Source of the DNA: Mya arenaria
Lineage: Eukaryota > Mollusca > Bivalvia > Myida > Myidae
Reading direction: 5' to 3'
NCBI RefSeq assembly: GCF_026914265.1
Contig: NC_069136.1
Span: 11,526,356-11,590,355 of the forward strand
DNA: 64,000 bases
In this document: positions 781-29,889 of the stretch, piece after piece
Layout: the number at the start of each line of letters is the position of its first letter
How positions within the stretch are numbered: the stretch's first letter is position 1
The notes under the pieces: generated by a model
Seen by the model: the letters and a program-made list of their open reading frames with translations, nothing else
Database searches by the model: none
Told to the model about the DNA's origin: nothing
Program-made: the position numbers and the translations under genes

Positions 781-783
781 AAC

Positions 784-806
784 CAAGTTCAAGTTCAAGT
801 TCAAGT
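784..806 (-). repeat. Microsatellite 3' tail of the LINE
   Basis: Three to four repeats of CAAGTT (ACTTGA/AACTTG on the element strand) lie exactly at the 3' junction of the LINE. Several LINE clades end in short tandem repeats that prime target-primed reverse transcription. Confidence 0.7.
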
Positions 807-1027
807 TTTTATTCGTCAAGGCATATACTATGCATGTGACATAACAAAACAATGAAACACATATTAATTAACATCAAATAAAACAGTGAACAAACATGTC
901 AAATACAAGAAAAAAAAAGAAGAAATTTTTCTAAACAACATCAGTGAAGATATGAAGTAATAAGGCACAATGGAATGGTATTGTAATTATCAATTGCTCT
1001 TTGGTTAATCGGTGTATGGAGAGTGAG

Positions 1028-3395: not shown

Positions 3396-3624
3396 TGAAA
3401 TTGCCAATTCTGATATTTTCCCTTTTCTGATACTGATCATTATTGTCAATTTTGTACACATTTACCAAAATGTTTGATTTAGCTTTTGTCAAATCAGACG
3501 ACTTCGCACACTCATCAATCATAGACTCCAATGTATCAAATCTTGAATCCAAAAGCAACCTCGTGGCTTGGGCAATCTGGTCAAGATCTTCCTTTGATAA
3601 TTTTGAACCTTTTCGGGAGCTCAT
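3396..3624 (-). pseudogene. LINE ORF1 N-terminal remnant fused to ORF2
   Basis: The frame starts with MSSRKGSKLSKEDLDQ and reaches QKRENIRIGNF, which resembles the 'RRNNIRI' stretch of L1-type ORF1 RNA-binding proteins. Sequence from about 3395 downwards then belongs to the ORF2 linker in another frame. The rest of ORF1 and the ORF2 endonuclease are absent, so a single internal deletion of roughly 2-3 kb (judged from usual LINE sizes) joined the two ORFs. The fused frame stops at 3313. Confidence 0.65.
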
Positions 3625-5950: not shown

Positions 5951-6130
5951 TTGTTGGTACAGCAATGGTGGTACCAATTGATCTTGCAGTGTTTGTTTTC
6001 ACATTTCATCATATTGTCTATATACATTTGGCATTTTACAGGAACAATACAATTTAGATTTGCTTGTTTTGATTCTTGTTGAGGCATTTCACTTCTTTGA
6101 CTAAAGCCACTTGATTCTGGTCAATTTCAA
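5951..6130 (-). pseudogene. PHD-like finger remnant, copy 1
   Basis: Minus-strand reading gives a C-x5-C, then KCENKHCKINWYHHCC, like the second half of a PHD finger (C-x4-C-x5-H-x2-C with the conserved Trp). The same peptide is readable in copies 2 and 3. It is not an independent gene; it is best taken as an exon remnant of the decayed element that forms the block. Confidence 0.4.
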
Positions 6131-6559
6131 TCAATAGGTAAATAACATTTCAGCATATTGTAAAATTTAAAAGTATGGTCATTCAAACAACTTGAAAATG
6201 AACCAGACATAATTTGATTTTTATATTAATGACTTAAAATATGAATGATTGTTAATCGATGCCACTTAATAATGTAAAACTTCAGAAATAATTTCTTATC
6301 AAATCTGAACATGATATAAACTATATAATATCATACATACAATATTACCTATTCAAGGTATAACTTGCATTCAAGATTGTTTGAAACTTGCTAACTAGGT
6401 CTGTTTTTGATTCATCTGTGATTTTAAATGAAATAAACAGTACACTCTTTAATATGCACCTCAATTGACATGGCGTGTCTTGTCAATCAAACCAACCACT
6501 TGATAACCGATTGACCAATCGGCCTCAGGATACGACAGTAGCGTGGTTTTCTTATTTAT

Positions 6560-6853
6560 TCATTCCCCAAAACATTGCAAAATATTGAACACATTTTTGA
6601 GAATTTTTCTTCCATTGTACTTCTGTAAGGGTAGATTCGAATGATATTTGTTTTCTGACAGGTGTATGTCACAAAGTAACATAATTTCGCAAAAGCTGTC
6701 CCTGTACTTAATGATACCAATACTGGCGCTTTTCTTTAAGGAAATGTCTTCGCCGTCCATTTCTAGACATAAATCTCTGTTACATGCCAGGGCTTGCTGG
6801 ATTGGTAAGTTTCTTGGATGCTCCATTTCCCTTTTGGGCTGGCTCCAATACAA
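6560..6853 (-). pseudogene. Exon-like fragment of unknown protein, copy 1
   Basis: A 97-codon minus-strand frame begins MYWSQPKREMEHPRN and contains LEMDGEDISLKKSASIGIIKYRDSF. Copy 3 carries the same frame at 28866-29154 but with a small indel that shifts the end. I do not recognise the family. Its position downstream of the transposase core in copy 3 suggests a C-terminal exon of that element. Confidence 0.4.
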
Positions 6854-6906
6854 CGAAACTTAAATTCGGTGTTAATATGAATCCACAGTCATGTACATGT
6901 TTTTTT

Positions 6907-8071: not shown

Positions 8072-9421
8072 TGAAATCGATTAAGTCTTGCAATGCCGTA
8101 ATGAGTTCTTATTCTTTGTTTCCAACTACTTAAATTTGACAATGTCAATTGTCATTGTCAATTGTATCAACTTTGTGAAAGTCCTTCGTTTAATAAAGGT
8201 GACTTAATAAAGGTGACTAAGAAACAACAATATAAATTTGTATTTAATAGTGAAAATCATAACTGCTGTCTGCCAATAAACAATATTTACAGGTAATTAA
8301 TGATGATTTTAACTCGTACAACTGCTTTTGTATTATTAATTACCAAAACATACAGATTAAAACTAATGAAACTTCGGCATGCAGTGAAAGAATGTATTTT
8401 AGTAAATTAGAAATTACCTAATGGCTCAACAACGACATTCTAGCGTGTTGTCGATCATGTCTTGAAGATCACGGTAAAGCGAGGCATCTAGCAGTATTTG
8501 ATCGCTAAGCCTTTTCTGTGTGTGTTTAATCTATGCATGAAGAGGTTACATAAAGGACACTGTTACATTCATTACTTTGAGAAAGGTTTTCCTCAACCAT
8601 TTGCGTCTGCAATAATCATCTTTCTGTGCATGTACCTGCTTTTTTCACTCACATTGCTGTTTGTTGCCTCTGCTAATCATGTGTTAGAACGCTATATATT
8701 CACAATAACCGTGTCTGCTTATTGTTGTAACTGTTCTACTAGATCCTATAGCAGTATGTTGTGAACTTTGCTTTATGTATTCACCTTTTGACTATTAACA
8801 CCCCTCTGTAGCATGCTCACTTGCTTGTAACATAGCTAGAAGGGTGGTGGTTTAGCACATAGCCGTATTAGTCATTAACCAGGCAACCATAGTGCCAAGT
8901 GGACCTGGAGGTTCAAGTGAGAAGCAGACGAAGCCCACTTTTGTTCCATTATGTATACTCTAGAACCTTTCCCTGTAGTTGTCAACTAGACCTTATATCC
9001 TGTTACAACTTTGGCTTTCTCTATTAAGTTACAGATTTACTCATTGTTATTATTAGGAAGTAACCATGTATCACTTGCTTTTGTAGTTGTTATGTATCTG
9101 TACAACATGCCTATTCCACTTTGTAAATGCCAACAATGGTTCAACTTATATATGTCCCTTGGCTTGAATTTGGAGAAAAGCAAAAAAGTTCAAGGTCACA
9201 TTGAAATTGCATTGTTAGTAAAGCTGTCTTTTTAGAAATATCTTTTATGGCTAATAATATGCCTAATTTAAACAAACTTTGTCTTGACATGACCTTAAAC
9301 TTCTTTAAAATTGCATAAACAATTCAAAATGAAGTGAAATCATTTATTAGCATTTATTCCTTGATAACTCAATTCATAACAGAAGACTCTGGAATCAATT
9401 CAATGCCGGAACTTCCTCTGC

Positions 9422-11562
9422 TCACATGTCTGAAAGGAAAATATAAGCAAATGAACATGTGTATTATACATACAATAGAAACTGCAAAAGTATAACAATC
9501 CAGAAATCCAAGCTTAGCCCAATGACAATCAATGACTAGCATAGAAATTTATTGACATTGCCATACCTGAAAATTTATATAGCAGCCTTGTTCCGCACAT
9601 GACTATGTCAGGAGGATCCTGTTTTCTCTGAACATCAGATTCCAGAACAGTGTGTTTGACATCATTCAGAGTCCAGCTATTCTTCGTTTTTTTGAAGAAT
9701 TGTACCCATGGCCATGCATCAACCTTTAAATAATAAATGAATTAAAAAAATAAAATTTAAAGTAATATAGCAAGAGCTATGAATTTTCTGACATTCTAAG
9801 GACCATAACTCTCAAAAGGCTTTACAGAGTTATCCTCCTTGGTCAGAATCCAGCCCCTGCAATGGTGAACAGATGTATGTAAAGTTATATTAAAAAAGCA
9901 CAACAGATGTTCAAGTTAAAAGTGTTTGCACGACAACTACAATACAGATGAAGACAGCGTCAGACAGTACTTAATATTCTGTTGCTTAAAAAAATAATCT
10001 AATAATATGTCATGAAGCTGCTTGAATAAAGAAATTTTAATAAAATGCTTTTAAAATGTAAAATGTCACCATTTTACCTGTCCTTTTTAAAGCAAAGTCA
10101 CTGTTGACTGCTTCAATAAGATTAGAAAGTTTTAACTTTATTTAACAGAATTGCATTCAAATATCAATGCAACAGGAAATGAACAAGAAACGACAAAAGT
10201 TCAAGAAAGAAAACAATAATTAATACAGAACAAGGCCCATATTCACTATTTAACATTGAAGAGTCTAAAATTGAGACTCAATACTCAGTCCTCAAAAGTT
10301 ACTTTTCATTTGAACTTGAATAGCAACTTTTGAGGCCGGAGTCGGAGTCTTGAGTATCAATTTTAGGCTCAGCAACCTTAGTGAATATGCCCACCAATAA
10401 AATAAATCAAAGTTTGCTTCAACATGAAGTAAAAAATTGCTCTCAAACTACACTTACAACTGCTGGCAATAACGAAGTCCCATGACGGACAATTATGAAG
10501 TCTCCTGGCCGATACCTAACATTTATTTATTATAATTTCCTAATAAAATGAATTGAACCCACATGGTGTATGTCACTCTGTGCTCTATAGTAAATGATAT
10601 AAATTGCATCACTTAGGATTAATGGTTAGTTTGCGTATAAGAGTAACTATTTTTCTTATCAATATTGACTGGAGTATGGAATTAGAAACTGTATACTTAC
10701 ATCACATCATCATGCAAGCCTGCAGACACGTCAACTTCGGAGTCGGACAATTGTTCACTCGGGAGATTACCGTCATCAGAGGGATCGGATGGATCGGCAT
10801 CGGCGTCAGACGCAGGATCCTCGGGCATCAAAGGGAGGAACATGTCAGTACATGTATCTGAAGGACAATATTATATATATCAAAAATGCCACAGACAATA
10901 TGAATACATGCAAATTGCTTCATTTAAGTACTTTTACCAGACATCACCATAGCCTCAATGTGAACTCACCTTCAGAGGACTGCATTTTCTGCCCGTTAGC
11001 ACCTAGTTTCCACCCCACATGCTCACTCGGGAGATAATCGTCATCAGAGGGGTCAGATGGATCGGCATCGGAGTCAGACACAGGATCCTCGGGCATCAAC
11101 GGGAGGAACCTGTCAGTATCTCAAGGACAATATTATATATATCAAAAATGCCATCAATTGACAAGGTGAAAACATGCAAATTGCTTCATCAAAGTACTTT
11201 TATCAGACATCAACAGAGACTCAAATGTGAACTCACCTTCAGAGGACTGCATTTTCTGCCCGTTAGCACCTAGTTTCCACCCCACATGCTCACTCGGGAG
11301 ATAATCGTCATCAGAGGGGTCGGATGGATCGGCATCGGCGTCAGACACAGGATCCTCGGGTATCAACGGGAGGAACCTGTCAGTATCTGAAGGACAATAT
11401 TATATATATCAAAAATGCCATTGACAAGGTGAAAACATGCAAATTGCTTCATTAAAGTACTTTTACCAGACATCAAAAGAGACTCAAATGTGAACTCACC
11501 TTCAGAGGACTGCATTTTCTGCCCGTTAGCACCTAGTTTCCCCCCCACATGCTCACTCGGGA
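9422..11562 (-). pseudogene. Element B gene, C-terminal exons only
   Basis: Minus-strand exons with GT-AG borders: a partial exon at 11501-11562, then 11237-11386 and its diverged copy at about 10973-11123, then 10701-10857, 10458-10515, 9567-9723, and a last exon ending in a stop at 9422-9424. Phases agree where checked (157 bp ending with two bases, then 58 bp starting with one). The repeated exon encodes LIPEDPVSDADADPSDPSDD then YLPSEHVGWKLG, strongly acidic. The last exons encode YRPGDFIIVRHG...LPAV and WVQFFKKTKNSWTLND...GTRLLYKF, matching the element A C-terminus. Function is unknown; the acidic part looks like an unstructured linker or protein-interaction region. Confidence 0.6.
10972..11562 (-). 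repeat. Tandem exon duplication, about 264-bp unit
   Basis: The landmark CAGAGGACTGCATTTTCTGC recurs at about 10975, 11241 and 11505, so an acidic exon with flanking intron has been tandemly copied; a diverged further exon lies at 10701-10857. The complete exon (11237-11386) is 150 bp, a multiple of three and phase-symmetric, so added copies keep the reading frame. Confidence 0.75.
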
Positions 11563-13569
11563 GATGGGTTTATGATCTTTCCATTTTTGCAGATTCTTGC
11601 AAAAGGATTTTTTAAGCATAAATTGTTTTACAGTTTTCAAAGAAACTGATATATCATCAGCGCTTTTTCTCACATGGTCATTGACAATGTTGACTAATGT
11701 GTTAACAGTTGTGGATGCTTCGAAATAAACACCAACAGTGTGTCTTTGACAACTAAAATCACATTGATCAATTCTTTTTTTGTTTTGCAAACGAATGCGT
11801 ATACATTGTGAGCGTATTTTTGATGTCATTGAGTTCAGGATTTGTATATGTTTCCCTGTTATATTTACCTGGTCCTTTAATCGCTACCGTTGGGCTCCCC
11901 AGTATCAGCATCAGACGTGGCAACAAGTGGTTGTTACTAACCCTTTGCATGCTGGGTAAATTGTCGTCTGCTCAAAAATGTCGTCTGGTTTATTCTAAAT
12001 TTCTTTCAATTTACTTAAAACTTTGGGGATATATTGACAGAGTGGCAAACAGCTTGGAACCTGACCAGGCGCCGAGTTACTCGGCGTCTGGTCTGGTTCC
12101 AAGCTGTTTGCAAAGCCTTTAAAATCGCTATCAGCAGCTTAAGGGCTAAATGCTCAATTTTAAGTAGAAGCATTTATTACAGCACCTGCGTCGCACAACT
12201 ATCCATTATATTCAACTATCCAAAAAACATGCGTACCACATAAGTTTGTATAATATGTATCAAATCGTTGTATTTATTGAGTGTGTTATAGACAAAAAAA
12301 TTCTCATAAACCACTCCACTATAAAACAACGAATAATTCATTGCTGCAAAATTATAATAAATATAACAAAAGTATCTGTTTGAAACATTATCAATTTGAG
12401 TAAAGTGTAATTTGAGTGAAGTGTGTATAACTTTTTAAGCAGCCTGCCGCACGCTCGCTCGCCCCGACTGTTTCCTCTTTCCATCCTTGCCCCTAATGAT
12501 TATGAATTGAGCCTGCCGACCTAAATCATACTTTTTTAACGTAACTATTTGCACACCATCAATTTCACCTAAATCAGGGTTCTCAACATCCCGATAAGAT
12601 AGTTAAATGTCTAACTCCAGGTAAAGTAAGTGTATACCAAGGCGCCGCACAACAGAATGACTTCTTCCAGGCTTGGTGTGCCTTATCTATTTCGGCTATT
12701 ACTTGTGAAAGTCTTGTAGTCTGAAACACGTTGGACTGATGGGTGCTGTGCCCAGAGAGGCTCTCATCTCGTCATTTGAATTTGGCTGTCAGTTAGAAGC
12801 TCGATCCTGTCTGTTAGATAGGTAAAATAATGTGCGAGAACATGTAATCTATGTCTTCTTGGGTATGCCCAACTATCAGGAAAACAATCTTCTTATCTTT
12901 CATTATTTCACAATGTTCAAGTAATCACAGACACATTGTTAAGACTGATTTGTTTGTTTTATTATAATGATTTTTCTTTAACATGCTATTACTAAGGTTT
13001 CATACAACTAATATTGACACTAAGAAAAGGATCATACTTTGAACAGAATAATAAAGATACATGTTATTATAATAATGATACAAATAGTCGGGATATGTAT
13101 AAAATTTGTCCCTATTAAAAACATTTCTAACGCATTGACAGAGGCATATTATGAAAAAACATGGCCTTAAATGGTCTAAACGGTCTAAACCATTTTACCC
13201 GGTAATTCTTTATCAATTTAATACATTTGGTATTGTTGTAAAAACAACCAGCCTCCAGAAAATGTTTTTGGGTTTTAATTACTAATGTCATAGATTATGC
13301 TAATATTTGTCCTAAAATTATTGTTGAAAATTGTGTAATATCGCACAGAGGTATGAAAAGCACAGTCCTATAAGGAATGAATATGGTGGTGCAGTGCAAG
13401 GCTCCACTCTTTAATAAGTACCAAGAAAACTGTACAAAGCTATTTTTCTGAGAACTAAACATTGTTGGTACAGCAATGGTGGTACCAATTGATCTTACAG
13501 TGTTGGCTTTCACATTTCATATTGTCTATATACATTTGGCATTTTACAGGAACAATACAATTTAGATTT
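11562..13569. repeat. Repeated block, copy 2 (truncated at both ends)
   Basis: Starts at GATGGGTTTATGATCTTTCC (equivalent to about 4171 in copy 1) and stops at TTTAGATTT, equivalent to about 6060, where element A begins. It lacks about 96 bp present near 4910-5005 in copy 1 and carries a 205-bp MITE. The PHD-like peptide is readable on the minus strand around 13445-13560. Confidence 0.85.
11941..12145. mobile_element. 205-bp MITE with CTAA target duplication
   Basis: Begins CCCTTTGCATGCTG and ends CAGCAGCTTAAGGG. It is flanked by CTAA on both sides (11937-11940, 12146-12149), while the uninterrupted sequence in copies 1 and 3 has CTAA once (TTACTAAATGCTC). The interior has a strong palindrome around 12048-12115 with arms CAAACAGCTTGGAACC and GGTTCCAAGCTGTTTG. 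I recognise the type as a short hairpin element abundant in bivalves. Confidence 0.85.
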
Positions 13570-13609
13570 GGCTCCTTATTAGATAAATGGAAAAAATAAC
13601 GTCCGTCAC
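13570..13609 (+). repeat. Left terminal inverted repeat of element A
   Basis: Forty bases starting GGCTCCTTATTAG and ending ACGTCCGTCAC are identical to the reverse complement of 23791-23830. Confidence 0.95.
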
Positions 13610-13753
13610 ATTAAAAAAATAGAAGTCATTATTTCAGCCGATTTTTTATGGTTTAACAATAAAATGAATATTCAGCTTGTAAAAAAACAACATAATAAGA
13701 TAGTTGATGCATTAGTTTTGAAATAAAATACAAAAATGTATGACCTGGTAATT

Positions 13754-14150
13754 GTGACGGATGTTACTTTGACATTTTTCTTAGTGGAAAAAAGGTAGTT
13801 TTGCTTAATATTTTTGTTAAACAATCATAAAATCCACACAGGAACTCGGTATTGTTATTTTCAAACTATGGTGTTAATTGCAGCACCTATAGTTTGTCGG
13901 TAACAACATATTTTATATTTGTGACGGCAGTTCACTATTTTTTGTTCCATTTTATGTTTCTGTGATGGTACCAAATATAAATGAGGCATAAACCATTATC
14001 ATACTAGGCAAGAAATTAAACTGCCTTGTTTTGCATTATCTTAGTGTCAAGATAAAGAACACAATGAGAGCCTGAGTTAATATACTTAACATGGGCGTTA
14101 CGTTTGACATTTTGACTTGTTCTGGTCTGTGTGGCTGTTACATTTGACAT
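13754..14150. promoter_or_regulatory. Left subterminal motif cluster of element A
   Basis: Related motifs: GTGACGGATGTTACTTTGAC (13754-13773), GTGACGGCAGTT (near 13921), GGGCGTTACGTTTGACA (14093-14109) and GGCTGTTACATTTGACA (14133-14149). Together they suggest a consensus GGnnGTTACnTTTGACA. Likely transposase-binding sites by analogy with subterminal repeats of other transposons. Confidence 0.5.
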
Positions 14151-15128
14151 CATGAAGCTTAGAAACATGCATGTTTGAACTATTATCACTGGATTTTGAA
14201 TTAGAATAGTTTTTGTTGTCAATTGCAATTGATTCTCATTGTGCACAGGCTTTAAATTGTTTTTCAGCAAAGTTGTCTGTATCTTATTTGAATTTTCAAA
14301 TGTCACTTTTCTTAAAATCATATTAACTTTTCTAAATTATTTTTCCAAGTATTGAAACTGTTTAAAAGACTGTGTCAACTGACATGCTTCATTTATAATT
14401 GAAGTGATACTTTATAATGCTTCTAAAATCAAATGGTAGAACACTGTTGGTTTATGTAGTGAACTTTGCTTTGCTGAATGTACCCTTTGTTGTATGTAGT
14501 GATCTTTGCTTTATGTACCCTTTGACAACATGTACTTAGCACCCCTCTATAGCATGCTCACTTGCTTGTACTAACATAGCTGTAAGGGTGGTGGTTTGGC
14601 ATATAACCATATGAATCATTAAAATTTTAGTGTGTTATTAGCTGTTGTCATCTTTATGCACCTATTAGCTGTTAGTCACCTTCTGCAACATGCTTATCCG
14701 CTTGTAACATAGTTTGCATGGTGAGTGGTATTGTACTTTAACCATTTCAGCTATTAACAAGGCAACATCAGTACAGGATGACCTTGGGGTTTCGGGTAAG
14801 AAGAAGACATGTGACATATTTCAACTTATATCAATAAATTGCTTATGAAAAATCCTCACGTTAGAGAATCAATTCATTAAACATCTAATTGGTAAGATGT
14901 AAGATACAAGCGAATTCATCATAACACTTCATTTGCAGGTCAGAAGTTTTGTAATAAACACCCTTCATGTAATTAGATGACTTGTAAAAATTATTTGTTA
15001 ATGGAAAAACATAAACAAATGCTGTATAAACATTTCATTCAGTACATTGTATTCTGTCCTTTAAAAAAAAAATCAGCAACACTACAAAATTTCAAGAATT
15101 TATTTCTCAACTTGTAAAAATTCCTTTG

Positions 15129-18100
15129 TTAAAATTTATAATACAGTCTTGCTCCTGAAGCAATTATTATTGGATCACTAAGACATTCAGCCACATTAAA
15201 ATTGTCCAGAAAAAAGGGTTTGTCTTCCAGCCTCCATCTGTCACGACCTGCCTTGCGAAAAATATTGTACCCATACACCCATTTCAGGTCTTGATTCCAT
15301 GCAATCTGGTGTCTGGATAATCTGTAACAGACAAAAACAGCTCATTATGTTTGTTGCACGAGTCTTACAAAAATAGTCTAAGGCAAGTATTGAATTCAAT
15401 TTATATGAGAGCATTACTTACTTTGCAAAGTTTTCACTATATAATTTTATCATAGTCAAAACACATTATAGAATATGTGCATTGCCTGCAGGGCATGTTA
15501 TATACAACCTTCGGTACACAAAATAATATAAATTTATTTTTGTGAAGTATACAACAAACAGAACAAACAAAGGAAACAATAACAAAATAACAAAACAAGT
15601 TAATAACTTTCATTCAAACCATGACCTCTATAATTAATAAAAAAGTTATCATAATTTCACTGAATTTGAAGATTATATGCTGTTTCAATGTTCTTATAAT
15701 AATAAATGAGGTCAAGATTTGATATTCAACTGTATGTATCATAAGACTTACAACTGCAGGTATGTTTTCTTTTCCATGTTTGGTAAGGACAAACTGTCCA
15801 ACAGCATACCTATTTTGACATTTGAATAGACACATTTAAATAGAAAGGTCAAAATTAGTGACCTGCTCAAACCAACAAGAGCTGACTGTGGACATTACTA
15901 TTAGAATGTTTTCGAAGACCAAAAAAGCCAAAAGGGAAATAATTCAGATAGAATGCATAGCAGTCTTGTCTATCCTCGTTTCTTAGATATGTAAAAAATT
16001 TTACGTCGAATTGCACTGAAATACTGTAACAGCTACAATTAATTAACCTAAACTGTATTTTAACTTGTTTCTTCAGACAACCTCACAAGCCCTTTCCAAA
16101 CATTTGCTGTAAACAAAAAGTTTTTTTTTACATTTGTACAAACTTACTTTGGTTCCGCTTCATCTGTGCTGCTAACAGTAGGTCTGAAAGGTAAAACAGA
16201 TATCAAGATGACTCCTTCATGTAAGTAAACAAAAAAACACAAGGCTTTCAGAGTGTTGTGCACAATGCAGGAGTCCCTACCTGTGAAAATCCCCTTTCAG
16301 TCACATTACCTTTGACCTTTGGTGAAAAATAAAAAGTTGTGCATAATCTTCTCATTGCCACTTTTCATTATAATAAGTTTTGTCTAGTTACTGCTTAATG
16401 TTATATTAAACTTACCTTCAATGTAGATCTTTCACTTAAGTATCTTAAAATTTATTAACATAATTATTCATTTTGTAAAGACTGCTTTTAAAATGAGCAA
16501 GTATTGGAAATTAAAGCTAAATAGTTGGATTATATACACCAAATAATGAAAATGAGAATTTGTTTGCACCTGCATAACAACTGGGTCTGGTAAACTGGTG
16601 ACTTCTCGAACTGGTCACTGCATGGCTTCTGGGACTCAACAGCACATGGAAGCTGGGACAGATCATTTGGTAGCTTGATGGACTGGTCATTGGATGATTC
16701 CAGGTAATGGTCACTGAATGGCTGCTCTGTCTGGTTACTGGCTGCTTGTTGGGGCTGATCACTGGCTACCTGATCAATCTCGCTGTGAGAAAAGACACAA
16801 AACATTACTAAACATGTAAATGTTGAATAACTGAGATTAAAGGAAAGATCATTTAATTCCTATAAATGATTTATCAGTTATATGCTCTGAACAGGTCAAT
16901 ATACATTACCAAACTTTAAGCAAACTTAGTTATAAGCACCTGCTTGAAATCTGGGTGTTGGCAACTGATGGTTCCTGGTTCTGAATACAAGATGGCTGCT
17001 TGGTCCATGAAGTGACATCCAGCTGGGGCTGGTCACTTGCACTATCAGCCGTCTGATCACTTGACACTTGCTTGGTCAAGATCTGTTGTTGGGTATGGTC
17101 ACTGGCTGGCTGAACATTCTCACTGAAGGAAGAATGCATAATATCATATTAAACTTACTTTAAATGTAAAAATTTCACTTATCTTTAAATTTATAAACAT
17201 TATTCATTCTGTAAAGCCTGCATTTAAAATGAGCAAGTATTGGAAATTAAAGCTAAATAGTTGGATTATATACACCAAATAATGAAAATGAGAATTTGTT
17301 TGCACCTGCATAACAACTGGGTCTGGTAAACTGGTGGCTTGTCGAACTGGTCACTGCATGGCTTCTGGGACTCAACAGCACATGGAAGCTGGGGCAGATC
17401 ACTGGGTAGCTTGATGGACTGGTCACTGGATGATTCCAGGTAATGGTCAATAGATGGCTGCTTTGTCTGGTTACTGGCTGCAGGTTCAGCCTTACTGATA
17501 CTTTCATTTATTACATTCAAGATATCAGTAATATCCATTGTTTCAATTGTGTCTACACCATCAAAGTCAAATGAACTCTCAATAATCAAATCTTCATCCA
17601 TATTAAATATAGCAGGTTCTTCCAATTCTGTATCATAAGTTGCAACAAATTCTGAAAATGGGGTATCTGATACTAATTGGCTTGTACTTGGATCCTGTTG
17701 AATATTTGCTTTCCCACCTCTAGTCCTGACTCCACCCCTAGTTCTAGTTCCACCCCTGGTCCTTGCCCCACCTCTCATCCTTACTCCTGTTGATATGCAT
17801 GTCGTAGGTTCTAAACTGTTAACTTCAGCTGCTATAGCTTTTGTGGTGAACTCATGAAAGACACTTGGGTCAGATTTAGTTGCTTTGGATTCTTCAAAAT
17901 CTGAATCAGAATCTGACTCTGATGCATTTTTATCTTTATCTGATTCTGAATCAGTATCAATATCTGTAACTAATCCATCAGACTCTGAACTGCTGGAATC
18001 GAATGTTCTCCTATTCACAAACCTTTGAGCACCACCTCTTCCTCGAACTCTTTCCATAGTACCTCTGCCTCGTCCCCTTCGGACTCCACCTCTCCCTCTA

Positions 18101-18147
18101 CCGCTTTGGATGCCACCTGCGTCCTTGAACATGCTCGACACCGTCAT
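15129..18147 (-). CDS. Element A gene, C-terminal exons (RGG, acidic, SDQ-rich, small C-terminal domain)
   Basis: Exons on the minus strand: 17306-18123 (or from the Met at 18147), 16940-17122, 16570-16782, 16150-16185, 15752-15809, 15129-15305. All internal phases close, and the stop is at 15129-15131. The first exon starts with GRGRGGVRRGRGRG repeats, becomes Ser/Asp/Glu-rich (SESDKDKNASESDSDSD), then has three RTRGG-type repeats. The next exons are Ser/Asp/Gln-rich (ASDQPQ, SNDQSIKLP). The last two encode YAVGQFVLTKHGKENIPAV and a WVYGYNIF...WRLED...GARLYYKF ending, homologous to element B. RGG boxes often bind nucleic acid; the C-terminal part looks like a small beta-rich domain. The roles are inferred. 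Confidence 0.7.
16494..17490 (-). repeat. Exon-containing tandem duplication in element A
   Basis: The stretch 16494-16760 is repeated at 17231-17490 with a few differences, including the intron start GTGCAAACAAATTC and the exon encoding SDQSIKLP, LPCAVESQKPCSDQF and VYQTQLLC. The offset is about 737 bp. The added exons (183 and 213 bp) are multiples of three with the same phases, so the duplication extends the protein without breaking it. Confidence 0.8.
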
Positions 18148-18189
18148 TTACTTGTTCACTTTGCATTCTATTTCTTCTCCCTCTCTGTC

Positions 18190-20268
18190 TTATAGCAGGT
18201 CTAGCTCTACCTCTGTTTCTGGGAACATCTTTTGAAGCTTTTTTATGTCATTCACCTTCCATTCGTGTACGTAGTTACTGTTCACACATGTTTGTTCAAC
18301 TCCATTGATACAGAATTCGCAAAAACAAATTAGATTTCTGGTATTAATTATCATCTTGTCTACTGCTTGAACAGCCTGGACTTTGCGAGTTCCTTTCAAA
18401 GTTTTACAGCACTTATCACTTCGTTCTGGTCTATCGTGGTTGATGTCGGTCACAAGAAAAATTGTCCTTTTAAAGTGTTCATTGTGATCTGTGTCTTCTT
18501 TTGAGAGCTTTTGCTTTGCAATTTCAAAAAATTCATTGGCATCATTGACGACCACATTCCCACCCATGACTGCTCTTCTGACTGCACTCTTGACTACAGC
18601 ACCTGCTCCATCTGATGGACCCTTTCCGTGACGAGACCCATAAAAATGTCTTTCAATCGAAAATCCAAAATCTGCTTGACTACAAGAAATGTCAGTGAAT
18701 GGTACCTTTGATTTATATTGAGCTGAACATCCATCAGTAAGTTGGATTTCTTTTAATATGGTGACTCCTCTTTTTTGAATGAGATGCTGGTTGGCTAATT
18801 TAACGAATTCTTGTACTGCTGCTGCATCATGTACTTTGTCATCTGACACAAAAATAAGATGTTCAGTAACTATATCTTCACAGCCCTCTTCTTGGCACCT
18901 GTAATATGCCACAGTGGGATGGACTGTAACTTGGTTGTGGCTCCAATGGGCACTTTGAACTTCTCTTTGCGCTACACAAGTATAGTTTTCTGCAAAATCC
19001 ATGTTCAGTATTGCCCAGGATTTTGGCACATTTTTCTGAAGCATAAGGAACTGTTTCTGTTGCCATGCAGCAACAAACAAATGTTCAGCAAAGGTCTTCA
19101 GCTCTTCTGAAAGGTTCAAAACCACCTCAGTGACACTACCTGTATGGGATACGGGCATGATCTGTGTAACTTCTTTACCCTTGTACTGTTTTTTAACACG
19201 CTCCCACTTTGAGTATACTACAGTGGCCATACAGTTTTGTTCCGCCAAAGGCTGGTAATACCTCACAATACCATCACAACCACAGTGAAGGCACTGTCGC
19301 TGAATGCACTGTAATTTGTGAAACGCCGATCCTTCATCTTTTTCACACAATGTAATAGCTACTGCTTCATATTTATCTTTCACTTTAATAGTGGAACCAG
19401 ATCTAGCAGCTACTTGTGCCAAAGCCTTTAGCTTCAAGTCCACATTTGCACAGCTCTCACACAAGCAACCAAACCATGGCTGCTTTCTTGTAGACTGTAC
19501 ATTGCTTGGTTTGTTTTTCACGAACGTTGAAAATGATGCTTTCACATCCACATGATCTTCCTTGAACTGTCTGTACACCTCTGCTAGTGGTCTATCCAAA
19601 ACTCGTCGTTCCTGGTTATCTTTCTTTACTCTTTTTGCAGTGGGAAGATTTGTGGATACATCACACCTTTGAAAGTAGTCTTGAATTACTTTCTTATTTT
19701 GTTCACTGGTAGCATCTCTCCTAAGCTGTTTCGCTTTGTTTCCAGCTATAGACTGTTTGCTAATATATGAATCACTTACGCCTAAAAATCTTGCAAGCAT
19801 TGTACTTAGTCTGTACTTTTTCAAAAATGATAGGTTTCTAATGATTTTTTGCTTTACCAAGTGACTGTTATTCTTTTTATTACTGTTCTTTAACACCTCA
19901 TATGATTTCTCAAAAAACGCCAACTTTTTTCTTGATGTAGGGGTATTCAATAGATTTTTCTCTTTCATAATTTTTCTCTTTCTTGGTGTGATGTTGTGAA
20001 CAAGATACTCCACCGTGTTAACAAATTCCTCAGGGTCTTTTGGAAAATTCAACTTCTTTTGTGCCCTTTTCAAATGAGATTCAGTATTATTCCTTTTGTC
20101 TTGTCGGTAATGCCTATCTTTCTCTTTATATCTTCTATGTTTTTGACTGCTTCGCCTTTCACGACTTTCCGCCTGTTTCCTTCGCCAGTATTCCCTTTGT
20201 TTTTCAGTCTCTGACCTTGTTAAAACCTTTTTCGTTTTGGATTTTTCTTCAGTCACAACTCCCATCAT
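18190..20268 (-). CDS. Element A core protein, candidate transposase
   Basis: The reading frame is 692 residues long. The N-terminal third is very basic (EKQREYWRRKQAESRERR, KHRRYKEKDRHY) and includes a helix-turn-helix-like stretch around MLARFLGVSDSYISKQ. A Cys-rich segment follows (WFGCLCESCANVD; later CIQRQCLHCGC). The likely catalytic region reads AILNMDFAENYTC, QSAHWSHNQVTVHP, then EIQLTDGCSAQYKSK and ERHFYGSRHGKGPSDGAGAVVKS. The acidic residues in DFAENY and TDG look like the first two positions of an RNase-H-fold DDE/D site; this is inference. An intron acceptor TTTGCAG precedes 20287, so the frame continues upstream into 20805-20943. At the 3' side a possible 87-nt intron (18124-18210) would join it in frame to the RGG exon. 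Confidence 0.75.
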   Translation of the reverse strand: MMGVVTEEKSKTKKVLTRSETEKQREYWRRKQAESRERRSSQKHRRYKEKDRHYRQDKRNNTESHLKRAQKKLNFPKDPEEFVNTVEYLVHNITPRKRKIMKEKNLLNTPTSRKKLAFFEKSYEVLKNSNKKNNSHLVKQKIIRNLSFLKKYRLSTMLARFLGVSDSYISKQSIAGNKAKQLRRDATSEQNKKVIQDYFQRCDVSTNLPTAKRVKKDNQERRVLDRPLAEVYRQFKEDHVDVKASFSTFVKNKPSNVQSTRKQPWFGCLCESCANVDLKLKALAQVAARSGSTIKVKDKYEAVAITLCEKDEGSAFHKLQCIQRQCLHCGCDGIVRYYQPLAEQNCMATVVYSKWERVKKQYKGKEVTQIMPVSHTGSVTEVVLNLSEELKTFAEHLFVAAWQQKQFLMLQKNVPKSWAILNMDFAENYTCVAQREVQSAHWSHNQVTVHPTVAYYRCQEEGCEDIVTEHLIFVSDDKVHDAAAVQEFVKLANQHLIQKRGVTILKEIQLTDGCSAQYKSKVPFTDISCSQADFGFSIERHFYGSRHGKGPSDGAGAVVKSAVRRAVMGGNVVVNDANEFFEIAKQKLSKEDTDHNEHFKRTIFLVTDINHDRPERSDKCCKTLKGTRKVQAVQAVDKMIINTRNLICFCEFCINGVEQTCVNSNYVHEWKVNDIKKLQKMFPETEVELDLL

Positions 20269-20804
20269 TTTCCTCTTCTCACGGAACCTGCAAAGAAATG
20301 TTTCCGCATCAAATGTAGTTTTAGAATATTATAAACTAACAAAAAGTCAATATTTATACAAACTGTGTATTGAAGTTCTAATGTACATGTGTAAAAAACC
20401 TTTACACAGATCTAAATGTGTGGGTTCAAGACTTTCTCCGAGGCTGAGCGCAGAATAATATTACATGTGTGTCTTATAAGAAAATATGTGGTGGTTATAA
20501 TACGTTGCGAACAAGCGACGTCATGTGATAAATAAAGGTCAGTGATTACTAAAGTTTTAAGTATTTATTTTACAACGATAAGGAAACAAGTACATGTATG
20601 TAACTTTCAAATTGCACTCGTTGGCACCGATCCTCACGTGCATGTGTTCTTAGTGCGGGAGTAAACCCATTCGTCTGACCTGGTGACCACATGACCATCT
20701 TACATGTCAATGTCGTAGATGGAACCTAGGTGGCAGCGGTGAGAAGCAAGCCCTTTTTACCACTACGCAAGCCAGACAGCCAGTGATTACTACAAGATCA
20801 ATAC

Positions 20805-20943
20805 CTTTTTTGTCTTTCTCGAGCTTTCATTCTGTCTTCAATAATTTGCAACTCTGGTCTTTTCTTCCAACTCAGTCGTTTTCTTTCTTTCTCCCTCTGT
20901 CTGTATTCACTCAATTTTCTAGGATTTTTTTTTCAAGGATTCT
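20805..20943 (-). CDS. Element A gene, upstream basic exon
   Basis: On the minus strand this reads KLSEYRQREKERKRLSW and then EDRMKARERQK, ends in a GTATTG donor, and joins in phase to the core exon (K-R-F-R-E-K-R-K-M). Its upstream limit is uncertain: with the TTACAG acceptor at 20944 the frame meets a TGA just before a run of nine A, so either the acceptor is closer or the run has slipped. Another possible 5' exon with an ATG lies near 21460-21520. Confidence 0.45.
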
Positions 20944-22336
20944 CTGTAACTTAAGAGAAGTGAATATTAAATGATATGTACAAATAGACATGATGATAGC
21001 AATTTAAAACAGAAATTATTTCAATGGTTAAATTACCTTTATAGATTTACAGAATATACTATAGTTGTTTGGAGGTCAATAAAATAGCGCGGATGGTGTA
21101 TTTATGGAAGTACTGGACTGAAACTGAAAAAAATATGTTTGATTCTTATTAGGTATTATTAAATTTCTGTGTTTTTTATGACTTGTGGATTGAGCACAAT
21201 TAGTTATCATTGATCCTGGTGGCAGTATATTTAATTTTGAAAATTGAATACTTCTTAAGTTGGTGCTAGGGGCTAAGGTCATTTCAGTTCTACCCATGAA
21301 CAGAAAAGTTCAATAAAACTGAGTCTGAAATTGTCAGTGCTTGCACAAGTTTGTCTTCGGTGCTTCCGGGGTATCAATTTTAATTTATATTAGTAATAGA
21401 AAACTTGAAATTACTTTATAGCTCTTTCAGCCGGTGTAAGTCTGGTTTGGCAGCTAACCTTTGTGCTGGACTTCACACTTGTCAACATAATGGTCCTTGT
21501 GCTTTTACGACGTTCCAGATGCTGTAAATAAATTGTCTTTGCATAAATAGTTTGCAAATGAAAAAAATGCAAACTAATCAGATAAAATTATTACATGAAA
21601 ATGGCAGATCTAAACCGAACAAACCACAAAAACAAACATTTGAATGTGTATAAAAATCTAAAAATTGTCCACTCATTCTATACAAGTACACAGACTGGTT
21701 AAAATGAAGAATACTTGTAATTTAGAGTGCTTCTATGCTTGAAATTCTCTGGCTTGCGAGTCTTAAAATTGTTTTGCTTGTTTGGGTTTCACGCCGCCTT
21801 CAATGTTTCAGTTATATCGCAGCAGTCAGTTATACACTTTTCCTAGGCATGCTTAGACCATCAGTACTGGGTACAAAGTAAGTAACTGACAACTTGCTTC
21901 ACATGGAGATAATTTTGTCCAACCTCACGCATTACAATGCAATGCATTGAATCGCAACCACCCACCTGCTGGAATCCAGAGTTACAGAGATTCCATATAT
22001 TGAAGCCCATTAGCCGCCTTTTACGATAGCCTGTCTGACACAAGGGGCGAAAAAGATCTTATTTACACTCAATTTAACAAATTAATTTAATAGAAATAAA
22101 AATGTACGATTGATTTGCATTTACACGTACAATCTGTTCATATTTTCATTGTCAAATATCACAAACATTGTCAAAACTTAACAGGCATACACTAATATTC
22201 ATCTGCAGTCACTCCTGTTTTAAAAAATTGAATGGATTTAAGTTGCACATAGATCTCCTTTATGACACACATATATTTCAGTTTTACCTGAATAGATGTA
22301 AAATAACTCCACTTTTTTAAAGAAATCTTGATCAGT

Positions 22337-23609
22337 AGTTACTTTTGACAAGGCTGTATCAAAAAGTAGTTGTCAAAAGTAACGGTGTTTGAAAATGTTT
22401 CAGCACAAAGTGACTACTTGTAATTTTAATAAAACAAATATCTGATAATACTTTCAATTATTCTCATCATAACACTGTAAACTGTACTACTGCATAAGAA
22501 TGTTTGAGTGAAACATGACAGCACAACTATGATGGATGTTACACTTTGACAACATTTCACTGTCAAATGTCACTTCTGATCATTCATGTAACGTCAAAAT
22601 ATCACGGGCGATTCAGTTTTTAGAGTCATTAAGTAACCGGCGTGTCAATTGTGCTGTGTCAAATAGTAACGGGCAATTTATAAATTTGTATTGGGAAAAT
22701 ATTTCACTTTGAAAACAGCACAATTATTAAAGTTTAAAAATGAAATCCAAGAAAATACACACTGAATTGAAATATTCAGACAAAATAAATTATTTCTGCA
22801 AAGCCTTTCGAATCGTCAGTCGGCAGTTATGTTTGACAATCTGATATGCTACCAAATGTGTCAAAACTAACGCGGAAATTTTTCGATTCTGTCTAAAAAT
22901 AACTGCCGAACACCGACTTAAAATACATGCACGTTTACCCAAAGAACTAAAGCTTAAATCAAAGAAAACCCGTCAAAAATATATTTCTCAAATCACAGGA
23001 ACATTAAACAAAATAAAACACCATTTTTATGTAGATTCTGAGGCTGTGACGGACGTGATCTAACAAAATAGTTTGACCGACAATGCAACTAACCTCTTTT
23101 TCCTCCATTTTTTTGGACGACGGCACAAATCGATGACGTATTACACAAACGATGTTGTAATATAACCTGTAAGCGTGCAAATTGCCCTTCTGCTAAACTC
23201 CGAAACCCTGTACACGCAAATGAACGGTCGTTACGGATTTGACCGACATAACATTACTTCAACTTGCCAACTTTTTTTGCATTTTTTTCAAAACAATAGC
23301 CATTTCATTTGAGTACATGATGTAATGTTGGAGAAAAATATATGCACTTTTAAACATAAGTGCTGAAGATATCAATATGTATTTGTGTGTATAGGTTTGG
23401 CTCCAATGAAAATATCGATCATTTTGACCGACAACGTAACGGGCGTGAGGTCCTTCTTGTACACAATTTCCTCGCATAGAAATAAAAAATAAAATAGTTT
23501 TAAACACAACTTTATAAAGAATAAACATATTTTGCTTGAATGCATACTCAGAATAACTATATACCTGAATAATATGTTATAATGTTGACACTTTTGACAT
23601 GCCATCTCT
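22337..23609. promoter_or_regulatory. Right subterminal motif cluster of element A
   Basis: At least nine related motifs in both orientations: GTTACTTTTGACA (22338-22350), TGTCAAAAGTAACGG (22371-22385), GGATGTTACACTTTGACA (22534-22551), AACGTCAAAATATCACGGGC (22590), TGTCAAATAGTAACGGGC (22656), GGCAGTTATGTTTGACA (22822), TGTCAAAACTAACGC (22859), GTGACGGACGTGATC (23046) and TTTTGACCGACAACGTAACG (23422). The density far exceeds that of the element's centre. Confidence 0.55.
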
Positions 23610-23790
23610 CGCCACCTCTTATAAGAACTATGAAAAACCTTGACATTTTTGACAAAAAAAGTAAATTAATAAAAACAAACAAAACTAAGTGAAAGATTTT
23701 ATTTCAGTTATATCAGTGCTGTGAACATGGATTAAGAATATCAAATTTACACCATTTATGCCATCAGATTTGAAACTTTGGAACAAAAAA

Positions 23791-23830
23791 GTGACGGACG
23801 TTATTTTTTCCATTTATCTAATAAGGAGCC
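23791..23830 (-). repeat. Right terminal inverted repeat of element A
   Basis: Starts GTGACGGACGTTA and ends AATAAGGAGCC; an exact reverse complement of 13570-13609 over 40 bases. Confidence 0.95.
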
Positions 23831-25376
23831 ATTAATCAATTCATCAAGAGATGGGTTTATGATCTTTCCATTCTTGCTGATTCTCACAAAAGGAGTTTTA
23901 AAGCATGAATTGTTTTACAGCCAGCTGCTTTCAAAGAAACTGATATAATATCAGCACTCTTTTTGCACATGGGTCAGTGAAAATCTTGATTAATGTGTTT
24001 ACGGTTTTGGATGCTTCTAAAGAAGCATACCTTGACAACAAAATTCACATTGATCAATTCCTTTCTTTGTTGAAGAAACACCGACAGTGTACCTTTGACA
24101 GCAAAATTCACATCGATCAATTGCTTTTTTTGTATTGCAAATGAATGTTGAAACATTGCAAGGTATTTTTGATGTTGTTTAATTCAAGTTTTGTATATGT
24201 TTTTCCTGTTATACATGTATATAGTCCGTCCTTAAAATGCTACTGTCAGTCTCGCCAGTATCAGTATCGGACAAAGTAAGAAGTGATTGTAATTAAGGGC
24301 TCAACTAGGCCGTTTCTCTGTGGTCTATATGGACATGTTTGTACCTTCCTCCTGAATGAAACACAGACACAACACAGCCTTTTGACAACAAAATTGACAT
24401 TGATGAATTCCTTTCTTTGTTTTGCAAACGATGGTTTATACATTGCAAGAGTATTTTTGATGTTTTTTTAAAGCCTCAATTATAAGACTTGTAGGTTTAA
24501 ATGGGGACCCAATTTCCATAAACCAAGTTGTAGATATCCACGTCCATGATTACAGTCATAATTTTTTTTATCCTTTTTATGTCCATTTCACACGTTTGGC
24601 AGACAAGACCTTTGTTTTCGACAACGAAGTTCACATTGATCAATTCATCAAGAGATGAGTTTATGATCTTTCCATTTTTATGGATTCTTGCAAAAGAAGT
24701 TTTTAAGCATAAATTGTTTTACAGTTTTCAAAGTAAATGATAAATATCAGTACTGTTATTCACATGGTCATTGACAATGTTGACTAATATGTTAACAATC
24801 CTGGATGCTTTGAAAGAAACACCAATGATGTCACAGTCTTTGACAAGAAAATTCACATTGATCAATTCTTTCTTATGTTTTGCAAACAAATGTTTATATA
24901 TTATCTTATATATTATCAGTGCTGTTTTACACATGGTCAGTGGAATTGTTGACTAATGTGTTTACAGTTAAGGATGAGTTTGAATGAAACACCGACATTG
25001 TGTCTTTGACAATAAAAAAATTCACATCGATCAATTCCTTTTTTTGTTTTGCAAATGAATGTTGATACATTGCAAGCATATTTTTGACGTTGTTTAATTC
25101 ATGTTTTGAATATATGTTTCCCTGTTATATTTGCCAGGTCCTCAAACAGCCACTGTCAGTCTCCCCAGTATCGTTATCAGAAGATTCAACTAGTGATTGT
25201 TACTAAGGGCTCTGAACTAGGCCATATCTTTATATTATCTTATATATTATCAGTGCTGTTTTGCACATGGTCACTGACAATGTTAACTAATGTGTTTACA
25301 GTTGAGGATGCATTTGAATGAAACACCGACATTGTGTCTTTGACAACAAAAATCACATCGATCAATTCCTTTTTTT
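23831..25376. repeat. Degenerate repeat array related to the block
   Basis: Several partial, diverged units of the same sequence that opens the repeated block. The core TTGACAACAAAATTCACAT, followed by GATCAATTC and TTTTGCAAATGAATGTT, recurs at about 24030, 24100, 24385, 24610, 24840, 25005 and 25340. The downstream part (CCTGTTATAT, CAGTCTCCCCAGTATC) also recurs. No intact gene. Confidence 0.75.
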
Positions 25377-28203
25377 GTTTTGCAAATGAATGTTGATACA
25401 TAGCAAGCGTATTTTTGATGTTGTTTAATTCAGGTTTTGAATATGTTTTCCTGTTATATATGCCCGGTCCTCGACCTGCCCCTTTCGGTCTCCCCAATAT
25501 TGTTATCGAAAGTTTTTACTAATGATTGTTACTAAGGGCTCAACTAGGCCATATCTCTGTGGTCTATATGGGCATGTTTATACCTTCCTCCCTCACAATG
25601 GAATTGGGATTTGATAGATTTTCGTCACAAATAGTACTGATTTTGACTTGATTTGTAATTGAGTTTAGTTTTTTTTGTTCATTCCATGAATACAGTACTC
25701 TGATAAGCTATCATCAATAGTTCTACCCAGTAATTTTGAATTCTTAAAAGGAGTGTTTAAGCATAAATTGTTATACAGTTTTCAAAGAACCTGGTAAATT
25801 ATCAGCACTGTTTTTCACATGGTCATTGATAATGTTTATAAATGTGTCAACAGTGCTGGATGCTTCGAATGAAATATACCTTGACAACAAAATTCACAAT
25901 GATCAATTCATTTCTTTGTTGCGGATTCGTTCGAAACAAACACCAACAGTGCATCTTTGACAACAGAATTCACATTTATCAATTTATTTTTTGTGGAGGA
26001 TTCCTTCAGAAGAAACACCATAAGTGTGTCTTTGACAGCAAAATTGACATTGATTAACTCCTCTTTTTGTTTTGCAAACAATTGTTTATACATTTGAAGG
26101 GTATTTTTGATCTCATTTAATTTAAGGTTTTGTATGTGTTTTTCCTGTAATATACGCCCGGTTCTTGGACCGCTACTGTCAGTCTCTACAGTATCTGACG
26201 TGGCAACAAGTGGTTGTCACAGGCTTATCTAAGCCCTATCTCTGTGGTCGTTATGGACATATTTGAAAATCTTCCCTTATAATGGAATTAGGAATTGATG
26301 ATTTTCTTCACAAATATTGATGATTTTGACTCGATTTGTAATTGATTTGCAGTTCCTTTGTTCATTGCATGAACACAGTACTGATAATCTTTCGGCTAGA
26401 GATCTACCTAGTATTTCTTGATTCTTGCAAAGAACTTTTACAGTTGAGTAATTGCGTTGGAGAAGGAACATGGACAGTGTGCCTTTGTCCATATCACTCT
26501 TTTGGCAGGCAAGACCTTTGTCTTCGACAACAAAGTTATCATTGATCAATTCATCAAGAGATGGGTTTATGATCTTTCCATTTTTGCAGATTATTGCAAA
26601 AGGATTTTTTAAGCATAAATTGTTTTACAGTTTTCAAAGAAACTGATATATCATCAGCGCTGTTTCTCACATGGTCATTGACAATGTTGACTAATGTGTT
26701 AACAGTTGTGGATGCTTCGAAATAAACACCAACAGCGTGTCTTTGACAACTAAACTCACATTGATCAATACATTGTTAGCGTATTTTTGATGTCATTGAG
26801 TTCAGTATTTGTATATGTTTCCCTGTTAATTATTTGCCTGGTCCTTTAATCGCTACCGTTGGGCTCCCCAGTATCAGTATCAGACGTGGCAACAAGTGGT
26901 TGTTACTAAATGCTCAATTTTAAGTAGAAGCATTTATTACAGCACCTGCGTCGCACAACTATCCATTATATTCAACTATCCAAAAAACATGCGTACCACA
27001 TAAGTTATAGACAAAAAAATTCTCATAAACCACTCCACTATAAAACAACGAATAATTCATTGCTGCAAATTTATAATAAATATAACAAAAGTATCTGTTT
27101 GAAACATTATCAATTTGAGTGAAGTGTAATTTGAGTGAAGTGTGTATAACTTTTTAAGCATCCTGCCTGCACGCTCGCTCGCCCCGACTGTTTCCTCTTT
27201 CCATCCTTGCCCCTATGATTATGAATTGTTGCAAAATGTAATAACCTCACCAAGTTCGGCTTTATCAGGTCTATATTACCCAGCCTGCACAAATTTAAAA
27301 GGTCCACATGCAATTTATCAGCCTGCCGACCTAAATCATACTTTTTTAACGTAACTATTTGCACACCATCAATTTCACCTAAATCAGGGTTCTCAACATC
27401 CCGATAAGATAGTTAAATGTCTAACTCCAGGTAAAGTAAGTTTATACCAAGGCGCCGCACAACAGAATGACTTCTTCCAGGCTTGGTGTGCCTTATCTAT
27501 TTCGGCTATTACTTGTGAAAGTCTTGTAGTCTGAAACATGTAGAGTGATGGGTGCTGTGCCCAGAGAAGCTCTCATCTCGTCATTTGAATTTGGCTGTCA
27601 GTTAGAAGCTCGATCCTGTCTGTTAGATAGGTAGAATAATGTGCGAGAACATGTAATTTATGTCTTCTTGGGTATGCCCGACTATCAGGAAAACAATCTC
27701 TTATCTTTCATTATTTCACAATGTTCAAGTAATCACAGACACATTGTTAAGACTGATTTGTTTGTTTTATTATAATGATTTTTCTTTAACATGCTATTAT
27801 TAAGGTTTCATACAACTAATATTGACACTAAGAAAAGGATCATACTTTGAACAGAATAATAAAGATAAATGTTATTATAATAATGATACAAATAGATGGG
27901 ATATGTATAAAATTTGTCCCTATTAAAAACATTTCTAACGCATTGACAGAGGCATATTATGAAAAACATGGCCTTAAATGGTTTAAACCATTTTACACGG
28001 TAATTCTATATCAATTTAATACATTTGGTATTGTTGTAAAAACAACCAGCTCCAGAAAATGTTTTTGGATTTTAATTACTAATGTCATAGATTATGCTAA
28101 TATTTGTCCTAAAATTATTGTTGAAAATTGTGTAATATCGCACAGAGGTATGAAAAACACAGTCCTATAGGGAATTAACTGTACAAAGCTATTTTTCTGA
28201 GAA

Positions 28204-28437
28204 TTAAACATTGTTGGTACAGCAATGGTGGTACCAATTGATCTTACAGTGTTTGTTTTCACATTTCATCATATTGTCTATATACATTTGGCATTTTACA
28301 GGAACAATACAATTTAGATTTGCTTGTTTTGATTCTTGTTGAGGCATTTCACTCACTTTGAAAAATGTCAATTTGCCAATTCTAAATTGTGTGCCTTCTT
28401 TGACTAAAGCCACTTGATTCTGGTCAATTTCAATCAA
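28204..28437 (-). pseudogene. PHD-like finger remnant, copy 3 (longest)
   Basis: Minus-strand frame with FRIGKLTFFKVSEMPQQ, then a C-x5-C and KCENKHCKINWYHHCC. The pattern C-x4-C-x5-H-x2-C with a Trp two residues before the His resembles the second half of a PHD finger. The first half spacing is unusual, and no final Cys pair follows before the stop, so the finger is incomplete or continues in another exon. It lies downstream of the transposase core in the same orientation. Confidence 0.45.
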
Positions 28438-28865
28438 TAGGTAAATAACATTTCAGCATATTGTAAAATTTAAAAGTATGGTCATTCAAACAGCTTGAAA
28501 CCAGACTTAATTTGATATTTATATTAATGACTTAAAATATGAATGATTGTTAATCGATGCCACTTAATAATGTAAAACTTCAGAAATAATTTCTGATCAA
28601 ATCTGAACATGATATAAACTATATAATATCATACATACAATATTACTTATTCAAGGTATAAGTTGCATTCAAGATTGTTTGAAACTTGCAAACTAGGTCT
28701 GTTTTTGATTCATCTGTGTTTTTAAATGAAATAAACAGTACACTCTTTAATATGCACCTCAATTGACATGGCGTGTCTTGTCAATCAAACCAACCACTTG
28801 ATAACCGATTGACCAATCGGCCTCAGGAATTACGACAGTAGCGTGGTTTTCTTATTTATTCATTC

Positions 28866-29154
28866 CCCAAAACATTGCAAAATATTGAACACATTTTTGA
28901 GAATTTTTCTTCCATTGTACTTCTGTAAGGGTAGATTCGAATGATATTTGTTTTCTGACAGGTGTATGTCACAAAGTAACAGAATTTCGCAAGAAGCTGT
29001 CCCTGTACTTAATGATACCAATACTGGCGCTTTTCTTTAAGGAAATGTCTTCGCCGTCCATTTCTAGACATAAATCTCTGTTACATGCCAGGGCTTGCTG
29101 GATTGTTAAGTTTCTTGGATGCTCCATTTCCCTTTTGGGCTGGCTCCAATACAA
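28866..29154 (-). pseudogene. Exon-like fragment of unknown protein, copy 3
   Basis: Same coding stretch as 6560-6853 (MYWSQPKREMEHPRN, LEMDGEDISLKKSAS), broken by a one-base indel compared with copy 1. Lies between the transposase core and the PHD-like remnant. Confidence 0.4.
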
Positions 29155-29889
29155 GGAAACTTAAATTCGGTGTTAATATGAATCCACAGTCATGTACATG
29201 TTTTGTTTTCTATTTCTGATTAATGCTCTTTGCCACTTTTTCATTACATATGCCATAGGATGTAGATGTTGCTATAAATTGCTTTGTTGACTTAATTAAG
29301 ACTGTTCGAAAACTCTGAAATCGGGGATTTTTTTTCATAATGCAACCAAAATTTGATGCAGTCAACCATTTCTTTCTTTCAAGAAGGCAAAGTTCAGTCT
29401 GCTTGACCCTTCATCTCAATATGTCTACACTCTTCCAGTGTCACAATAATGGCACTTAACTTTGGCTGGTAGTTATTTACTAAGTCAATGTTGCTGATCT
29501 CTGATAGCTAGGGCAATACACTTCTAAGGCTGCATCAGTTGTGCCTGCAAATACAATCATGACATTTCATTGTAAGCAAAAGAGCAAAAGTAGTTAAGAA
29601 AAAAATAATTAAATTGTGCATTAAATTTATTGCATTTAATTTTAAGCAATAAATGTTTTCGTTTGCGAGAACAGGGTCATATTCTACAAACTGTTCTACA
29701 CAAAGTGGCATGTTTTTCATCAAAAATAAATAAGGCTTAAACAGCACCAAGAATGTATATATTTGTCGCAATCTATAATCCTCTTGTCAAAATGTTTGGA
29801 TTCTTGATCGAGTTGTAGAGCATTTTAAGTTCTTAGACCCCCACAATTGTTTTAACTTTTAGCTCTGGTAGTTTTTGCAGATTTGATTT

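Follow-up and report, generated by a model that had tools for sequence, protein, structure and literature searches.

The question raised by this stretch of the Mya arenaria genome, a 64,000-nucleotide window on contig NC_069136.1 (positions 11,526,356 to 11,590,355), is whether a pair of long inverted repeats and the large minus-strand gene between them together make up a transposon. A first-pass annotation had proposed that they do, describing perfect 40-bp inverted ends and a gene of an uncharacterised family that would be the transposase. We consider it probable that the locus is an autonomous eukaryotic cut-and-paste DNA transposon in which a single large gene encodes a transposase of ~1195 residues.

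The element is 10,263 bp long. Its arms of 44 nt (13569-13612 and 23788-23831) are 98% complementary, and their outer 41 bp are identical, so that the perfect ends described before were found to be one base pair longer. When the window was searched with the outer 22 bp, tolerating up to 3 mismatches, only the two tips were found, and none was found in 100 shuffles. An exact search of viral contigs with the same 22-bp tip gave 0 matches.

The boundaries can also be placed from the flanking DNA, which is repeated elsewhere in the window. The left flank is 95.7% identical to one copy (12512-13570 against 5002-6062) and 91.9% identical to another (12510-13570 against 27320-28322). Those two copies continue to agree with each other beyond the point where the element starts, over 33 identical bases, a short insert and further homology. 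On the other side, the right flank is homologous to sequences at 4154, 24636 and 26542 (71 to 79% over 239 to 476 bp). On each side the paralogy stops at the repeat tip, with an ambiguity of 2 bp (TG common on the left, CA common on the right), and the tips are therefore the ends of an inserted mobile element. This is evidence for the boundaries that is independent of the inverted repeats. The claim that this is a mobile element with defined ends was thus borne out, both by the flanks and by subterminal repeats that are private to the two end regions. The terminal inverted repeats (TIRs) sit at true element boundaries, as in DNA transposons of the TIR type, and we assign the element to the DNA transposons with high confidence.

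The two flanks derive from different ancestral sites, the left one from the site at 6060 and the right one from the site at 4154, and the natural partner of each is absent beside the element. The left segment, 11561-13568, matches 4170-6060 in three parts (98.9, 98.6 and 95.7% identity), with ~200 bp extra between the first two; a short GAGAT, shared by both sides, marks the junction at its own left edge. Because the flanks come from two sites, a target-site duplication is not readable at the element. A candidate reading with one empty site and a 2-bp TT duplication was dropped; a blast search with the joined flanks matched two different sites.

Short repeats lie just inside the ends. The motif GTCAAA(N0-4)T[AC]AC occurs 14 times in the window, and every copy falls within the element: the left 1.5 kb has 3 and the right 3.0 kb has 11. 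There were none in the 5.75 kb between the end regions, none in the gene and none in the 53.7 kb outside the element. A narrower form, GTCAAA(N0-2)GTAAC, fits the three left copies and 4 at the right end and nothing else in the window; against these 7, dinucleotide shuffling of the element, repeated 200 times, gave 0.045 on average and never more than 1. This is a check rather than a blind test, the motif having first been spotted in the element by eye and only then counted. A second motif, GTGACGG, has all 5 of its window copies in the end regions (shuffles gave 0.21 on average and at most 3); the shuffle statistics cover this motif and the narrower form, the 14 copies of the widest form being a count only. 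Transposase-binding sites typically form arrays of this kind close to both ends, as in hAT and CACTA elements. The subterminal repeats, including GTCAAAnGTAAC, could be sites for binding by the N-terminal part of the protein.

No other large coding candidate accompanies the minus-strand gene within the element. The gene contains an open frame of 712 codons (18190-20328), whereas single-base shuffling of the element's minus strand, repeated 300 times, never gave an open frame longer than 188 codons. Apart from this gene's own frames, no open frame in the element exceeds 106 codons. The frame can be extended into a chain of eight exons separated by GT-AG introns, which runs for 1195 codons with no internal stop and uses an obvious GT-AG site at five of the seven junctions; further 5' exons beyond exon 0 are possible. 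Part of the tail is duplicated at the DNA level (16392-16745 and 17135-17481, 91.5% identity). Intron 0 contains an insert of ~230 bp (20540-20791) flanked by an 11-bp direct repeat, AGTAATCACTG. By eye the insert looks like a tRNA-derived short interspersed element; ARAGORN and Rfam (at the gathering threshold) found nothing in it.

Several parts of the predicted protein would suit a transposase. The N-terminus is very basic (32.7% Lys plus Arg over residues 1-110), the stretch LARFLGVSDSYISKQ looks by eye like a helix-turn-helix (HTH), and there are three CxxC pairs. All of the motifs named in the first-pass annotation, DFAENY, TDG...QYK and HGKGPSDG, are present. The core acids D439, D527 and D568, assigned by motif only, form a D-87-D-40-D arrangement, which is compatible with an RNase-H-type transposase. 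Beyond the core the protein continues with an RGG-rich and acidic part and a tail rich in Gln and Ser, and it closes with a small C-terminal module. The large gene is likely to be the element's own transposase, and the element is probably autonomous. We infer DNA binding and catalysis along the following lines: the 41-bp terminal repeats and GTCAAA(N0-4)T[AC]AC would be bound by the N-terminal part, which is basic and HTH-like, the RNase-H-type core would carry out end cleavage and joining to target DNA, and the RGG, acidic and Gln/Ser-rich tail would probably be disordered and accessory.

Proteins like the product of this gene are, we presume, multi-copy in many invertebrates. The 712-residue frame had no match in Pfam, and the core gave only Pfam matches at E 0.03 or worse, which we judged to be chance. 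NCBIfam gave no match, nothing among PDB sequences was better than E 0.29 and PHROG matches were at E 0.03 or worse, both again judged to be chance. The collections scanned for relatives were viral, prokaryotic, phage and plasmid and have little bearing on animal relatives. In viral contigs the 712-residue frame gave 9 pattern matches, and two motif-steered alignments gave 12 and 39; in genome contigs the same two alignments gave 33 matches each; 0 of any of these were confirmed. The DNA pattern for HGKGxxDGxG picked out 61 viral loci, against all of which tblastn of the 712-residue frame reached a best E value of 2.7, and tblastn of the 266-residue core found no match in plasmids or phages. 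Among the papers searched, none contained any of six motif strings or a gene name linked to the family. The earlier description of the family as uncharacterised fits with Pfam, NCBIfam and PDB sequences having given no credible match.

Several results weigh against reading the locus as a transposon that encodes its own transposase. The searched collections yielded neither a homologue nor a family profile. The only bases common to both flanks at the tips are TT, with no target-site duplication beyond them, and these 2 bp cannot support one because the flanks stem from two sites. The limits given above for the motif counts and their shuffles belong here as well. In the gene model, which had been described as having C-terminal exons all in phase, the 1195-codon open chain stands, but two acceptors, those at 18123 (exon 2) and 15305 (exon 7), are weak sites picked for frame; nearby alternatives break the frame, among them a stronger-looking exon 7 acceptor 16 nt upstream that is out of frame. 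The duplicated exon shows 8 nonsynonymous differences and 1 synonymous difference over 57 shared codons, and there is therefore no visible constraint on this part of the tail. As to the RNase-H core of the first-pass proposal, the lack of a rival large coding candidate and the suitable order and spacing of the motifs speak for a transposase, but the structural models are of low confidence: AlphaFold run on the single sequence reached a predicted local distance difference test score (pLDDT) of 33 and 35 in two models, with three of the five core strands appearing in the second, and a crude propensity calculation was mixed, placing the first Asp in a helix call within a mixed stretch. In the second model (pLDDT 35), D439 stands immediately after a strand, D527 three residues past one, and D568 precedes a helix by two residues. 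According to an excerpt of PMC5718144, DDE/D transposases have two Asp residues on or near strands 1 and 4 and the third acid near the following helix, and the modelled positions hint at agreement with this description. Because structure prediction failed, the RNase-H fold rests on motif order, spacing and low-confidence secondary structure.

If the element is a DNA transposon, does it belong to a superfamily that is already catalogued? We regard this as a substantial possibility, somewhat short of an even chance, with Sola the most likely home. Sola elements have a DDD transposase and make 4-bp target duplications, and they are not known to have a Pfam model. The triad here, assigned by motif only, would likewise be DDD and not DDE. 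Occurrence in bivalves is a second likeness, Sola1, Sola2 and Sola3 all being reported from bivalve genomes in an excerpt of PMC10294476; however, curated bivalve Sola1 elements average 5445 bp in the same excerpt, against 10,263 bp here. The likeness to Sola is one of description, and the target duplication that might have tested it is unreadable at chimeric flanks.

The absence of signature motifs of other superfamilies also favors Sola. In hAT, P, MuDR, Kolobok and Dada, C/DxxH lies between the second Asp and the last catalytic acid (PMC9587614); in CACTA, Mirage, Chapaev and Transib, that interval carries C(2)C and H(3-4)H (PMC12730594). We found 0 matches to C/DxxH between D527 and D568 and on to residue 600, and 0 matches to C(2)C and H(3-4)H in residues 527-620. 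The element does resemble CACTA/EnSpm and hAT in its short repeated subterminal motifs inside inverted ends, which in those superfamilies are thought to be transposase-binding sites; it differs from them in lacking their signatures between the second and third Asp and in the main frame having no Pfam match. Zisupton/KDZ elements share with it a large transposase with Cys residues, whereas they have a Pfam model and the protein here has no Pfam match. Academ elements carry an XPG-type nuclease, to which the scanned parts of the gene gave no match. In excerpts of the papers concerned, Academ is reported as amplified in bivalves (PMC10294476) and as making 3-bp target duplications (PMC5199201), and Zisupton/KDZ as making 8-bp ones (PMC12730594); no 8-bp duplication was seen here, though chimeric flanks could not show one.

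The family may already be catalogued elsewhere, for example in Repbase. More doubtful is the idea that it represents an undescribed superfamily of animal DNA transposons, to be defined by a DDD core, the motifs DFAENY, TDG(C/A)xxQ(Y/F)K and HGKGxxDG, a basic, HTH-like N-terminus, a cluster of Cys residues, inverted ends that are both long and perfect, and closely packed subterminal GTCAAA(N)GTAAC sites for binding.

The chimeric flanks are best explained by one of three simple histories: two copies of the element at nearby sites recombined, a deletion set out from the right end, or the assembly jumped from one near-identical copy to another. Recombination or an assembly jump would imply at least two copies of the element in the genome. 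An assembly artefact, in which the repeat served to join two near-identical copies from two sites, is possible rather than probable; the missing natural partner of each flank is what it would predict, but recombination between copies or a deletion from the right end yields the same picture. Such an artefact would concern the flanks only and is compatible with an autonomous transposon.

Unlikely, in our view, is a non-autonomous element or a captured host gene, with the large gene as cargo and the transposase encoded elsewhere. The fold and function of the gene product are putative, and an RGG and acidic tail strikes us as unusual for a minimal transposase, yet the element has no other sizeable open frame, and the acidic triad, basic N-terminus and Cys pairs suit a transposase. 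Least credible by far is that there is no transposon and that a host gene became enclosed by inverted duplicates when an array of repeats was rearranged: the neighborhood is rich in segmental duplications and the flanks come from different sites, but the arms are perfect over 41 bp, the tips are absent elsewhere in the window, paralogy stops at both of them and the subterminal motif is private to the end regions.

Table 1. Features of the element and its flanks, in window coordinates.
Feature	Position	Strand	Description
Left terminal inverted repeat	13569..13609	+	41 bp, perfect
Right terminal inverted repeat	23791..23831	-	41 bp, perfect
Left flank	11561..13568		Recent copy of 4170-6060; homology ends at left tip
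Right flank	23832..24058		Repeat-array unit homologous to 4154, 24636, 26542 onwards; homology begins at right tip
Left subterminal region	13602..14148		GTCAAA(N0-4)T[AC]AC at 13763, 14097 and 14137; GTGACGG copies
Right subterminal region	22151..23243		11 copies of GTCAAA(N0-4)T[AC]AC, both orientations
Exon 0	20805..20830	-	Start codon, MKARERQK(R); provisional
Exon 1	18211..20287	-	Basic N-terminus, HTH-like stretch, Cys cluster, RNase-H-like DDD core (D439, D527, D568)
Exon 2	17306..18123	-	RGG-rich and acidic extension; acceptor chosen for frame
Exon 3	16940..17122	-	Gln/Ser-rich tail
Exon 4	16570..16782	-	Partial duplicate of end of exon 2
Exon 5	16148..16183	-	From spliced chain
Exon 6	15752..15809	-	Start of small C-terminal module (YAVGQFVLTKHG)
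Exon 7	15129..15305	-	End of C-terminal module, stop; acceptor chosen for frame

A repeat inside the element at 14492-14808, 79% and 69% similar to 8754-8929, is the only DNA common to the element and the rest of the window (E 1e-3). Outside the element lie two segmental duplicates, 1-6906 and 25378-29207, each a repeat array plus tail and about 94-95% identical, with a third, partial copy at 11561-13568. The left copy of the array is interrupted by a non-long-terminal-repeat retrotransposon at 785-3783 (RVT_1, E 1.6e-36), whose empty site is found in the other array copy, with the junction at 26171. The window also contains a 532-bp inverted repeat (40039-40570 and 46301-46832, 95.9% identical, ~5.7 kb apart), a tandem array at 39036-39582 with a unit near 68 bp and a 345-codon frame with an internal repeat (44509-45546) that has no Pfam match below E 0.1. 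The open frame at 56777-57220 matches calpain domain III over a short span (E 3.8e-6, residues 103-130) and is probably an exon of a host calpain gene.

What the locus offers is a link between an unclassified multi-exon gene family, one presumably common in invertebrates, and concrete DNA ends together with a short repeated motif to which a transposase could bind. The link between ends and gene can be put to a direct test wherever a genome contains the family. If the element belongs to Sola or another catalogued group, it would be an unusually complete copy of a known kind. If none of the known superfamilies accommodates it, a large number of orphan gene models would be reclassified as transposases, and should the undescribed superfamily be real, widespread "uncharacterised" invertebrate proteins would be transposases or their domesticated descendants.

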